From: Kyrpidia tusciae DSM 2912
GTDB taxonomy: Bacteria; Bacillota; Bacilli; Kyrpidiales; Kyrpidiaceae
Assembly: GCF_000092905.1 (NCBI RefSeq)
Contig: NC_014098.1
Span: forward strand, 1,798,001-1,862,000
Reading direction: 5' to 3'
DNA length: 64,000 nt
Part shown: positions 39,462 through 50,876 of the stretch, one piece after another
How the letters are laid out: the number at the start of each line of letters is the position of its first letter
How positions within the stretch are numbered: the stretch's first letter is position 1
Notes under the pieces: generated by a model
The model's database searches: none
Told to the model about the DNA's origin: nothing
The model's input: only the letters and a program-made list of their open reading frames with translations
Made by a program: the position numbers and the translations under genes

Positions 39462-39524
39462 CGAAGAGAGAACGGTGAAAGAAGCCCGACCGTTTTCACG
39501 GTCTGACCCACCCGTTCATGCTGT

Positions 39525-39657
39525 TCCTTCTCCCATCCGGACTATACCGTCGGTACCGGACTTTCACCGGTTCCTGCGGTCTCAACCGCTCGTGGACTTC
39601 GCCTTGTCGACGTCACCACCGGTCGGGAATTGGGATACCCCTCACCCTGCCCTGAAG
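39525..39657 (-). promoter_or_regulatory. FMN riboswitch (RFN element)
   Basis: All core segments are readable on the minus strand: GGGCAGGGTGA, CCCGACCGGTGGT, CCACGAGC, ACCGGTGAAAGTCCGG, CCGACGGTATAGTC and GGATGGGAGAAGGA. FMN binding should end transcription at 39437-39461. Confidence 0.97.
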
Positions 39658-39682
39658 GAATTCGATGTCCAATTGTGGTTTC

Positions 39683-45875: not shown

Positions 45876-46646
45876 CTACCCGTCATCCTCACCGAGAAGT
45901 TGCCGGCGGATCCGGTTCAGAATCTTTTTTTCCAAGCGACTGACCTGGACTTGAGAAATCCCCAGCACTTCCGCCACTTCCGATTGGGTCTTGTCCCTGA
46001 AAAAGCGAAGGAACACGATCAGCCTCTCCCGCTCAGGCAGCCGGTTTAACGCATCGGTGAGCGCCAGGCGATCAAACCACTTCTCTTGTTCCTCGTCGGC
46101 GATTTGGTCCATCAGTAAGATCGGGTCCCCGTCGTTCTCAAACACCGTCTCGTGAATCGAAGCCGGTGCCCTCATGGCATCCTGGGTGAACACCACTTCC
46201 GCCGGGTCCATCCCCAGCTCCTCGGCAAGCTCATTGATATGAGGTTGCCGACCCAAACGTTTCGCCAGCTCGTCCCGGGCCCTTCGGATATGCCGAGCGG
46301 TTTCCTTGACCGATCGGCTCACTTTCACCGTGCCGTCATCCCGCAAAAAACGCTGAATTTCGCCGATGATCATCGGAACGGCATAGGTGGAGAATTTCAC
46401 GTCGTAACTGAGATCAAACTTATCGATCGCCTTCATCAGCCCGATACACCCGATCTGGAACAGATCCTCGGGCTCGTAGCCCCGACCCAAAAAGCGCTGA
46501 ACCACCGACCAGACCAACCGCTGGTTAAAGAGAACCAGGGTCTCCCGGGCCCCCGCATCCCCGGATTGACTTTGCGCGATCAGTTCCCTGACCTGTTGAT
46601 CGGTCAGTTTCGCTTTTGTCGAACCAAAATCCCTCTCCGGTTGCAT
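45876..46646 (-). CDS. sigF: RNA polymerase sigma factor SigF
   Basis: 256 residues. Region 2 with EDLFQIGCIGLMKAIDKFD and YAVPMIIGEIQRFLRDDG, region 4 with EVAEVLGISQVQVSRLEKKI. First forespore sigma factor, held inactive by SpoIIAB. ATG at 46646 with AGGTGAG. Third gene of spoIIA; placement after spoIIAB separates it from sigG. Confidence 0.96.
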   Translation of the reverse strand: MQPERDFGSTKAKLTDQQVRELIAQSQSGDAGARETLVLFNQRLVWSVVQRFLGRGYEPEDLFQIGCIGLMKAIDKFDLSYDVKFSTYAVPMIIGEIQRFLRDDGTVKVSRSVKETARHIRRARDELAKRLGRQPHINELAEELGMDPAEVVFTQDAMRAPASIHETVFENDGDPILLMDQIADEEQEKWFDRLALTDALNRLPERERLIVFLRFFRDKTQSEVAEVLGISQVQVSRLEKKILNRIRRQLLGEDDG

Positions 46647-46654
46647 GATCTCAC

Positions 46655-47101
46655 CTAGTGTTCCGACGTCGTCCGGCTCTTCAACCGCTTGACCAGGCGC
46701 ACCCGGGTACCTTGGCGGGGGCGGGACGTGATTTCGACTTTGTCCACGAAATTTTCCATGATTGTAAAGCCCATTCCCGACCGCTCCAAATCCGGGCGAG
46801 AGGTATACATGGGCTGACGGGCCAACTCGATATCCTCGATGCCCACTCCTTGGTCGTCTATCATAATCTCCACCACGTCTCCCTCAAGGGTGCAGGTGAT
46901 GCTCACCATCCCTTCCCGGTCCCCGTATCCGTGAATGATGGCATTGGTCACCGCTTCCGAGACTGCGGTCTTAATCTCGGTAAGTTCCTCCACGGTCGGA
47001 TCAAGCTGAGCGACAAATGCGGCAACGGCCACCCGGGCGAAGGATTCGTTTTCCGATCGACTGGAGAATTCCAATCGCATCACATTCCGTGTCGCGCTCA
47101 T
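46655..47101 (-). CDS. spoIIAB: Anti-sigma-F factor and kinase
   Basis: 148 residues, GHKL ATPase fold: [12 protein letters not shown] (N box), [11 protein letters not shown] (G1) and [12 protein letters not shown] (G2). Binds SigF or phosphorylates SpoIIAA. Confidence 0.96.
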
Positions 47102-47102
47102 C

Positions 47103-47453
47103 CTAGGCCTCCCTCAATGCGGCGATGCCGCCGGACTCGTCCTCATACACCGGCACGATGCGCAGCACCCCGGACAACTCCAACAGTTTCCGCACGGGCG
47201 CCGTCAAGCCGCAGCAGGCCATCTTCCCGCCGCGCTGGCTGATCCTGCGATACCGGCCCAGCAGCACCCCGAGACCTGAACTGTCCATGAAAGACAAATC
47301 CGACAGGTTCCACAGCAACCGAATCGACCCGGTCTCTTCCAAAAGCGCGTCCACCTTGGCCCGCACCCCGTCCGATGTATGATGGTCCAACTCTCCCCGC
47401 AACCGGGCCACCACAACCCCCGACCGATGCACCGCCTCCACCTCTAGAGACAT
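47103..47453 (-). CDS. spoIIAA: Anti-anti-sigma factor
   Basis: About 116 residues, STAS domain. The phospho-serine is in [18 protein letters not shown] at 47453 is better spaced from GGGAGGG than 47459. First gene of spoIIA. Confidence 0.96.
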
Positions 47454-47482
47454 GCCCATCCCTCCTCCCGATCTTCACCAGC

Positions 47483-48859: not shown

Positions 48860-50569
48860 TCACACTTCCAACCGGTACCGGTTTTCAGCCAACCGGTACA
48901 AACGCCTCCACAACAGGCGGTTTACCGCGACGACAAAAGCGGCCATCACGACAATGCCCCAGACAATGGCCGGCCAATCGCCATTGGTGGTCGCCCGGGT
49001 GATGTACGCCCCGAGCCCGGTGGCCGCCAGCTGGGTCCCCTTCCACGAAACCACTTCGGCGACGATACTCGCGTTCCATGCCCCTCCGGCCGCCGTCACC
49101 AGCCCGGTGACCAAAGACGGAAAAATCACGGGCAGAATGAGCAGCCTCCATCGGCGCCATCCGCCAAGGCGCATCAAATCGCTGGCTTCCCGGAGGTCGC
49201 CCGGAATGGCGGACGCCCCTGCGATCACATTGAATAGGATATACCACTGGGTTCCCAGCATCATCAGTGCCACCGATCCCCACTCAAGGCTTACGTGCAA
49301 GGACAAAAAGGCTGCGGTAATCAGCGGAAAAAACATATTGGCCGGAAACGAAGCCGCCACCAGAACCACCGGTTGGGCCACCCGGGACCATTTCGGGTGC
49401 GTGCCGATCCACACGCCCACGGGGATCGTCCACAGCGCTCCCAGCAGCACCGCCGCCGCCACCCGGAGAAGAGTGAGCACCCCATACAGCACAGGGAAAA
49501 ATAGCTCTCGCCACCCCAGTTCCCTCAGCATCAGCCCGCCCCGGATGATCCAGTACACCGCCACCACAAACACCGCGGCCCAGATCACAGCGGAGACGAC
49601 CTTTTTGGCCACCGAGGGCATCCGCATCCGAGGCGCCCGAGGCGGGCGCCCCGCGATCATCCACAGCCAGGCCGGCTCAAAAAACACCCGGCGGGCCCAC
49701 TCGGCAATGTGGGAACGCCGCAACAGCGTTAACATCCACGAAGTGGGCAGATCCGGGCCCGCCGTCTGCTCCACCTTGAAGCGCTGGGCCCATGCGACCA
49801 GGGGACGCCAGAACAGTTGATCCACGACAATAATCACGATGACCATGGTGACCATGGCATACAGAAGAGCTCGGACATCTCCCGCATCCATCGCCGCCGC
49901 CATGTACGATCCGATCCCGGGCAAGCGGATATCCCGGTGCATCACGGTGATGGACTCGCTAACAGCGAGAAAAAACCATCCTCCGCCAAAAGACATCATG
50001 CTGTTCCAAACCAACGGCACCGCCCCGTACGCAAGATCCAACACGAAAAACCGGCGGACCCCGCCCAGCCCGTACAGTCGACTCGCCTCCCGGAGCTCCT
50101 TCGGAACTCCTGTAATCGATTGATAAAACCCAAAGGTCATGTTCCACACTTGACCGGTAAATATCGCAAAAATCGAAGCCAATTCCGGCCCCAACAAACT
50201 CCCCGGAAACAGGGCCATAAACCCGACCACCGTCACCGACAAAAACCCGAGCACCGGGACCGATTGCAGAATGTCGAGCAAAGGGATCAGAATCCGTTCC
50301 CCCAGCCGGCTCCGGGAGGCCAGGCGGGCATACAAAACCGTAAACACCACCGAAGCCCCGAGAGCCACAAACATCCGCATTAAGCTTCGACCGGCGTAGT
50401 ACGGGAGGGCCGAAGGGTCGAGGGAAACGGTCATCGACTGGGGGGCATAGGGTTCTACCATCCCCTTCCCCACCTGCACGATGCCGTACAGGAGCCCCAG
50501 CACCCCGGCCAGTAGCGCCGCATCCACCCACCAAACCGTCTTTTTTCGGACCTGTCCGTAGGCGGGCAT
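48860..50569 (-). CDS. Fused double ABC permease (NitT/TauT-like)
   Basis: About 569 residues with two binding-protein-dependent permease domains in one chain, each with an EAA-type loop: PKELREASRLYGLGG and PGDLREASDLMRLGG. Some twelve helices. ATG at 50569 follows GGGGGAGACGG; the frame is open well upstream but that part is the riboswitch. The substrate cannot be told from sequence; regulation suggests magnesium or another divalent ion. Confidence 0.9.
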   Translation of the reverse strand: MPAYGQVRKKTVWWVDAALLAGVLGLLYGIVQVGKGMVEPYAPQSMTVSLDPSALPYYAGRSLMRMFVALGASVVFTVLYARLASRSRLGERILIPLLDILQSVPVLGFLSVTVVGFMALFPGSLLGPELASIFAIFTGQVWNMTFGFYQSITGVPKELREASRLYGLGGVRRFFVLDLAYGAVPLVWNSMMSFGGGWFFLAVSESITVMHRDIRLPGIGSYMAAAMDAGDVRALLYAMVTMVIVIIVVDQLFWRPLVAWAQRFKVEQTAGPDLPTSWMLTLLRRSHIAEWARRVFFEPAWLWMIAGRPPRAPRMRMPSVAKKVVSAVIWAAVFVVAVYWIIRGGLMLRELGWRELFFPVLYGVLTLLRVAAAVLLGALWTIPVGVWIGTHPKWSRVAQPVVLVAASFPANMFFPLITAAFLSLHVSLEWGSVALMMLGTQWYILFNVIAGASAIPGDLREASDLMRLGGWRRWRLLILPVIFPSLVTGLVTAAGGAWNASIVAEVVSWKGTQLAATGLGAYITRATTNGDWPAIVWGIVVMAAFVVAVNRLLWRRLYRLAENRYRLEV

Positions 50570-50613
50570 CTCCGTCTCCCCCTTTCTTCCCACAGGATGG
50601 TTCTTGACTCCAT

Positions 50614-50636
50614 AAAAAAACCCCCGAAGCCGGGGG
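50614..50636 (-). terminator. Expression-platform terminator of the M-box
   Basis: CCCCCGG-CTTC-style stem (CCCCCGGCTTCGGGGG) followed by seven Ts on the minus strand, 45 nt before the permease start. Confidence 0.9.
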
Positions 50637-50667
50637 ACACCATGCGCATAACGCACACCTTCCCCCT

Positions 50668-50816
50668 GGTTGAGCTTCGGCAGTGTACAACGTAGAGCCC
50701 GGATGCTCAGCCACCTTAGGGAAAGCCTTAATCCGGCAATCCCTGGTCTACCCATTGGCGTCTTTCGACGTTTCCGGGCAGTGGCCTGTGTTTGTACACA
50801 CGCCTCACCTAACGAG
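50668..50816 (-). promoter_or_regulatory. M-box (ykoK leader) Mg2+ riboswitch
   Basis: Minus strand reads CTCGTTAGGTGAGGC, CACTGCCCGGAAACGTCG, AAAGACGCCAATGGGT, AAGG and GCTGAGCATCCGGGCTC, then TGTACACTGCCGAAGCTC. These are the conserved segments of the M-box aptamer in order. High Mg2+ should favour the terminator at 50614-50636. Confidence 0.94.
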
Positions 50817-50847
50817 GATGGTGAAATCTTCTTTTTTGACCATGGCG

Positions 50848-50876
50848 ATTGTAGCACGTTCAGGGTCGGTCATCAA
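50848..50876 (-). promoter_or_regulatory. Promoter of the M-box/ABC transcript
   Basis: TTGATG (50871-50876), 17 nt, TACAAT (50848-50853) with a TG extended element; it overlaps the ileS 3' end. Confidence 0.75.

Follow-up and report, generated by a model that had tools for sequence, protein, structure and literature searches.

A complete M-box riboswitch precedes a predicted type I ABC importer of Mg2+ in Kyrpidia tusciae

The window analysed here is a stretch of 64,000 nucleotides from Kyrpidia tusciae DSM 2912 (contig NC_014098.1, positions 1,798,001 to 1,862,000), and all positions given without a contig refer to it. On its reverse strand lies a pair of transporter genes, a fused permease and an ABC ATPase, which is preceded by a regulatory leader (Table 1). 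The permease starts with an ATG at 50569, which follows the Shine-Dalgarno sequence AAGGGGGA, and 14 bp separate its stop codon from the ATPase. The gene directly upstream of the M-box is ileS, and a spoIIAA-spoIIAB-sigF-like operon (45876-47459, reverse strand) encoding a STAS protein, an anti-sigma kinase and a sigma factor is found 3' of the pair, the names on both flanks being read from translations. With these flanks, no binding-protein gene lies beside the permease-ATPase pair at this locus, as was claimed in the original prediction, which was made from the letters of the window alone. The window carries a second riboswitch, an FMN element (RF00050, 100 bits) at 39521-39663 on the reverse strand, and a cluster of eight tRNA genes at 1-713 on the same strand, one of which is cut by the window edge.

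Table 1. Features of the transporter operon and its leader, in window coordinates
Feature	Position	Strand	Evidence
Sigma-70-like promoter TTGATG-17 nt-TACAAT, extended -10 (TG)	50848..50876	-	Consensus scan, 9/12 positions
M-box (ykoK) Mg2+ riboswitch aptamer	50656..50823	-	RF00380, 148.4 bits, E 9.7e-34
Antiterminator: aptamer P1 3' strand GCCGAAGC...GGGGGA with terminator 5' half TCCCCCGGCTTCGG	50625..50690	-	RNA folding, -28.7 kcal/mol
Intrinsic terminator hairpin CCCCCGGCTTCGGGGG, then T7	50612..50638	-	Terminator scan (50636-50621) and folding; hairpin -12.2 kcal/mol
Fused two-half ABC importer permease, 569 aa	48860..50569	-	PF00528 (BPD_transp_1) in two stretches, 6.2e-27
ABC ATPase with C-terminal AAA-associated domain, 427 aa	47562..48845	-	PF00005 + PF09821
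C-terminal domain of the ATPase, predicted tandem winged helices	47565..48053	-	AlphaFold pLDDT 93.1

The interval 50614-50876, for which an M-box, a terminator and a good promoter had been claimed, runs exactly from the -35 element through the terminator tail. The aptamer match covers the Rfam covariance model RF00380 completely (model positions 1-169; gathering score 44 bits), and a search of the whole 3,384,766-base genome returned this copy as its single M-box. The M-box and the terminator are borne out by the scans. The promoter, with 9 of 12 consensus positions, is plausible but weak on its own, and the match is not by itself a sign of function; the promoter scan of the leader found two sites where 0.8 were expected in shuffles. 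The fold of the leader is far from random (z = -4.4 versus shuffles). The 3' strand of the aptamer helix P1 can pair with the terminator's 5' half, so the leader can form either the aptamer or the antiterminator but not both, and in the leader folding the antiterminator is mutually exclusive with both the aptamer P1 and the terminator. The complete aptamer, the covarying helices and the exchange between P1 and the antiterminator are shared with other M-boxes, for example the B. subtilis mgtE leader, which is a classical OFF platform with the same mutual exclusion. Among the homologous leaders of the transporter, 97.6% of the cells are paired against 36-41% in slid controls, the alignment being fitted to the model, and 26 of the 46 pairs carry double changes, so that the M-box helices are conserved with compensatory changes. 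A hairpin and a T run likewise stand between the M-box and the permease in most of these leaders. It is established for this riboswitch family that Mg2+ turns the M-box OFF. In the Kyrpidia leader, the Mg2+-compacted aptamer would hold the 3' strand of P1 and the terminator would form; at low Mg2+ the same strand would instead pair with the 5' half of the terminator, and the permease and the ATPase would be made only at low cytoplasmic Mg2+.

The two gene products had been described as a fused double permease and an ATPase with a C-terminal AAA-associated domain, and the domain searches agree. In the ATPase, PF00005 (ABC_tran, 9.5e-35) occupies residues 24-163 and PF09821 (AAA_assoc_C, 1.2e-40) residues 294-412; the Walker A, signature, Walker B and H-loop motifs are intact and conserved in alignments of 25-36 homologues. 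The AlphaFold model of the permease (pLDDT 84.9) has as its top solved match the fused ferric permease FbpBC (9j4r; Z 21.6 over 429 residues), and its single halves next match CmpB, MetI, NrtB and OpuA, which predicts the type I importer permease fold in both halves. FbpBC is likewise a fused double permease of this fold, but it is an iron system with 14% identity to the Kyrpidia permease. To our knowledge, neither an M-box nor Mg2+ gene neighbours occur with FbpBC. The permease is about 50% identical across many phyla, which points to one conserved substrate. No Mg2+ site was identified in it, which counts against its reading as a Mg2+ importer.

The pairing of this transporter with an M-box is not confined to Kyrpidia. 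The count of such pairs across genomes, which had been proposed as a check, was made in two samples. The first consists of the 80 closest relatives of at least 585 homologous loci in the collection. The Rfam M-box stood directly upstream in 7 of the 10 loci first tested, and a model built from eight leaders and then run on the homologous loci gave M-boxes in 24 Bacillota loci (7 of which match by construction, 17 being new) and in two Nocardia loci. An M-box hence lies upstream of the permease in 26 of the 80 loci: 24 of 50 in Bacillota, under which the unassigned Lucifera locus was counted, and 2 of 30 in other phyla. M-box regulation of the pair is therefore not universal, as it is absent from one in two loci in Bacillota and from almost every locus elsewhere. 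As these 80 loci are closest relatives, 299 genomes sampled evenly across the phylum were added. The homologous permease is carried by 18 of them. In 13 of the 18, an M-box precedes the permease by 72-315 bp on the same strand (chance about 1e-46), including a divergent clade whose permeases score about 490 bits. Among the other five carriers, one permease starts at a contig edge, two genomes have the M-box elsewhere and two have none. The association is not rare, since 13 of about 113 M-boxes in the even sample precede the pair. The M-box has switched state at least 11 times along the permease tree, which implies that the link was kept or regained many times. An M-box present by chance, or belonging to a neighbouring gene, is ruled out by strand, distance and recurrence. 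The SAM riboswitches near the Alicyclobacillus copies are encoded on the opposite strand, as part of a divergent neighbour. On Escherichia albertii plasmids (L135, 4896-7420), a distant homologue is found that is about 37% identical in the first half and comes with a short ATPase.

The gene that recurs next to the permease is the ATPase, and it is the only one (76 of the 80 closest loci by tblastn; two of the remaining four lie at contig ends). In Fischerella (L073) and in L049, no ABC ATPase gene could be found adjacent to the permease. No binding-protein family recurs beside the pair in the 80 closest loci or in annotated plasmid regions from several phyla, and as only the ATPase recurs, a binding protein hidden near the pair is ruled out. 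Two outcomes had been named in advance as speaking against the original prediction, a failed covariance search and homologous pairs consistently linked to a binding protein for an organic substrate and never to M-boxes. The covariance match turned out to be strong. M-boxes recur with the homologous pairs, and no conserved binding-protein gene is ever linked to the pairs.

Magnesium genes are found as neighbours of the pair in several phyla. For example, Nocardia inohanensis and N. yamanashiensis share the order M-box, mgtC (PF02308, 1.1e-36), permease and ATPase, with the permease start overlapping the mgtC stop in both, and the same order is found on a Tsukamurella plasmid, where the M-box scores 108 bits. 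An MgtC/SapB gene lies right behind the pair on plasmids of Cupriavidus taiwanensis and Aureimonas. Similarly, an MgtA-type Mg2+ P-ATPase stands 105 bp upstream of the pair in a Mycobacterium MAG and behind the permease in Fischerella, and in Paenibacillus sp. yr247 about 110 bp separate the end of a CorA gene from the M-box of the pair that follows it. Within 8 kb, a plasmid of Mycolicibacterium aubagnense (L134, 1-8015) combines the ABC pair with an M-box, a PRC/CBS MgtE-like gene and an Nramp-like gene that lacks DPGN; judged by its genes, this region is a plasmid-borne Mg2+ gene cluster. Two-component systems adjoin the pair in Rhizobium, Thermus and Aureimonas (L128, 3709-5345; L131, 4092-5813; L138, 8836-10571), and these are possibly Mg2+ sensors of the PhoPQ kind.

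The genome of K. tusciae, one contig that is 99.99% complete, encodes no MgtE, no CorA and no MgtA. Its five P-type ATPases are two of the Cu type, one of the Ca type, one of the Zn/Cd type and KdpB, all but the Ca type being named by reading the sequences. The one candidate among them for MgtA (L083) scores as a Ca2+ type, below the MgtA cut-off, and is ruled out. The single Nramp carries DPGN and MPH motifs, which we take to be the signature of the Mn2+ transporter MntH; these motifs disfavour its being an NrmT. Pfam and NCBIfam scans of the pair itself give only ABC and related P-loop families, which places it outside the known Mg2+ importer families CorA, MgtE, MgtA and NrmT (PF01544, PF01769, TIGR01524, PF01566). 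In a sample of 151 genomes of the class, MgtE occurs in none of the 8 carriers versus 80 of the 143 others (Fisher p 0.002), and neither MgtE nor CorA occurs in 4 of the 8 carriers versus 12 of the 143 others (p 0.005), both values being too small because the carriers, which are few, are related. Those four carriers all belong to the family of Kyrpidia, of which all four sampled genomes lack MgtE and CorA, and the sampled family members thus appear to live without either. As far as gene content can tell, the pair is the only candidate Mg2+ importer found in K. tusciae.

Taken with the leader, this makes it likely that the locus is a Mg2+-repressed operon for a predicted ATP-driven type I ABC importer of Mg2+ that works without a dedicated binding protein. 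The original prediction had left the choice between an undescribed ABC importer of Mg2+ or another divalent ion and a cross-regulation by Mg2+ of some other uptake. The former is favoured, because mgtC, mgtA, corA and Nramp-like neighbours recur and because the genome has none of the known Mg2+ importers. The fused permease and an ATPase dimer would form the importer, Mg2+ or a hydrated or complexed form of it would be taken up directly, and ATP would be used to pull it in at low external concentration. In Kyrpidia, the ABC pair would replace MgtE, CorA and MgtA. The C-terminal domain of the ATPase may add a further level of control. Its model matches the MarR/OhrR winged helix (Z 11.6) and the double winged helix of FokI/N.BspD6I (about 150 residues, Z about 11). 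A divergent clade has a short ATPase and encodes PF09821 in a gene of its own, which stands directly behind the ATPase (L158, 2893-4196) or behind two reverse genes (L157, 2773-5448), an arrangement that fits a regulatory subunit. Hence the winged-helix domain probably regulates the ATPase, and it may inhibit or gate it by the Mg2+ or the nucleotide state of the cell.

That the pair imports another divalent metal (Mn2+, Co2+, Ni2+ or Fe2+) whose uptake is coupled to Mg2+ status, with the M-box sensing Mg2+ or that metal, is unlikely. Mycobacterial M-boxes precede pe/ppe-mgtC, Mn2+-type or mgtE operons, and some M-box clients are therefore not strictly Mg2+ importers (PMC12810186). Likewise, a relative of NrmT without an M-box transports Mn2+ (PMC4072509). 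A VIT-family (Fe/Mn) transporter gene lies behind the pair in Burkholderia savannae (L140, 4839-8634), and the top fold match of the permease is a ferric importer. The neighbours that recur, however, are mgtC, mgtA and corA, and an importer of another metal would leave Kyrpidia without any recognisable Mg2+ importer, though with its MntH-like Nramp kept for Mn2+.

The kinship of the pair to NitT/TauT-type systems (NrtBCD, CmpBCD, SsuBC and TauBC) bears on a further explanation, in which a Mg2+-sparing or Mg2+-accompanying compound, such as a polyamine, a citrate- or phosphate-Mg complex or a NitT/TauT-like organic anion, is imported and Mg2+ does no more than cross-regulate the uptake. The permease halves and the ATPase are related to these systems in sequence and fold (Z about 15.7); the nearest solved permease sequences are CmpB (E 7e-10) and NrtB (E 3e-8), the ATPase is akin to taurine and nitrate ATPases, and databases label it a nitrate/sulfonate/bicarbonate transporter. 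NitT/TauT systems, however, work with a binding protein, and their permease genes are separate, whereas in Kyrpidia the halves are fused, a binding-protein gene is lacking and the ATPase carries PF09821. Every NCBIfam equivalog cut-off is missed by a wide margin, with 61 of the 209 bits needed for ntrB, 33 of 347 for SsuC and 209 of 357 for TauB. By both equivalog score and binding protein, two features that define NitT/TauT membership, the pair would thus fall outside that group. As neither a conserved binding-protein gene nor a conserved catabolic gene lies beside it and Mg2+ genes recur there in several phyla, a mere cross-regulation is quite improbable. Less probable still is a true Mg2+ importer that shares a binding protein encoded at another, unlinked place in the genome: Kyrpidia does have several NMT1-type (NitT/TauT-type) binding proteins, one of which (G000:C1:2731530-2732105) has no adjacent ABC ATPase and is possibly an orphan partner of the pair or unrelated to it, but most of the others lie beside an ATPase of their own, and a conserved binding-protein gene is wanting at the closest loci and plasmid regions alike.

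The riboswitch belongs to a known kind, and for the transporter, a type I ABC importer, a new substrate is predicted. The bacterial Mg2+ importers counted so far are CorA, MgtE, MgtA/B and NrmT, plus PE/PPE proteins in mycobacteria (PMC4072509, PMC12810186). In the open-access literature searched, no description of an M-box-controlled or Mg2+-specific ABC importer was found, nor one of the pair through its PF09821 domain, although an earlier mention is possible, for example in riboswitch regulon tables. We lean towards the broader view that the pair is the founding member of a new family of bacterial Mg2+ importers, which would be the first of the ABC type, would work without a binding protein, would be spread over several hundred genomes of Bacillota, Actinomycetota, Pseudomonadota, Cyanobacteriota and others and would be the one Mg2+ importer in the Kyrpidia-type lineage. 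If this is true, a primary-active ABC importer of Mg2+ would form a class with a new mechanism, and type I importers would gain a clear example that has no binding protein. It would also account for those genomes that encode none of the known Mg2+ importers, and the label 'nitrate/sulfonate/bicarbonate transporter' in public records would be corrected.

Two known systems resemble the locus in their regulation. M-boxes stand "almost always" before CorA, MgtA or MgtE, and the exception, NrmT, was likewise an unexpected M-box client that was then shown to be a new Mg2+ transporter (PMC4072509). The Kyrpidia M-box would add an ABC importer to these clients; NrmT is a secondary carrier of the Nramp fold, and the two have no sequence relation. 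The pe20-ppe31-mgtC operon of Mycobacterium is also under M-box control, includes mgtC and serves Mg2+ acquisition in Actinomycetota (PMC12810186), but its PE/PPE proteins take a position comparable to that of the ABC pair in Nocardia and Tsukamurella. In one further genome (G158), an M-box precedes an NrmT-like Nramp with a DNDAGG motif (L165, 1020-2738), and the ABC pair of that genome stands without an M-box.
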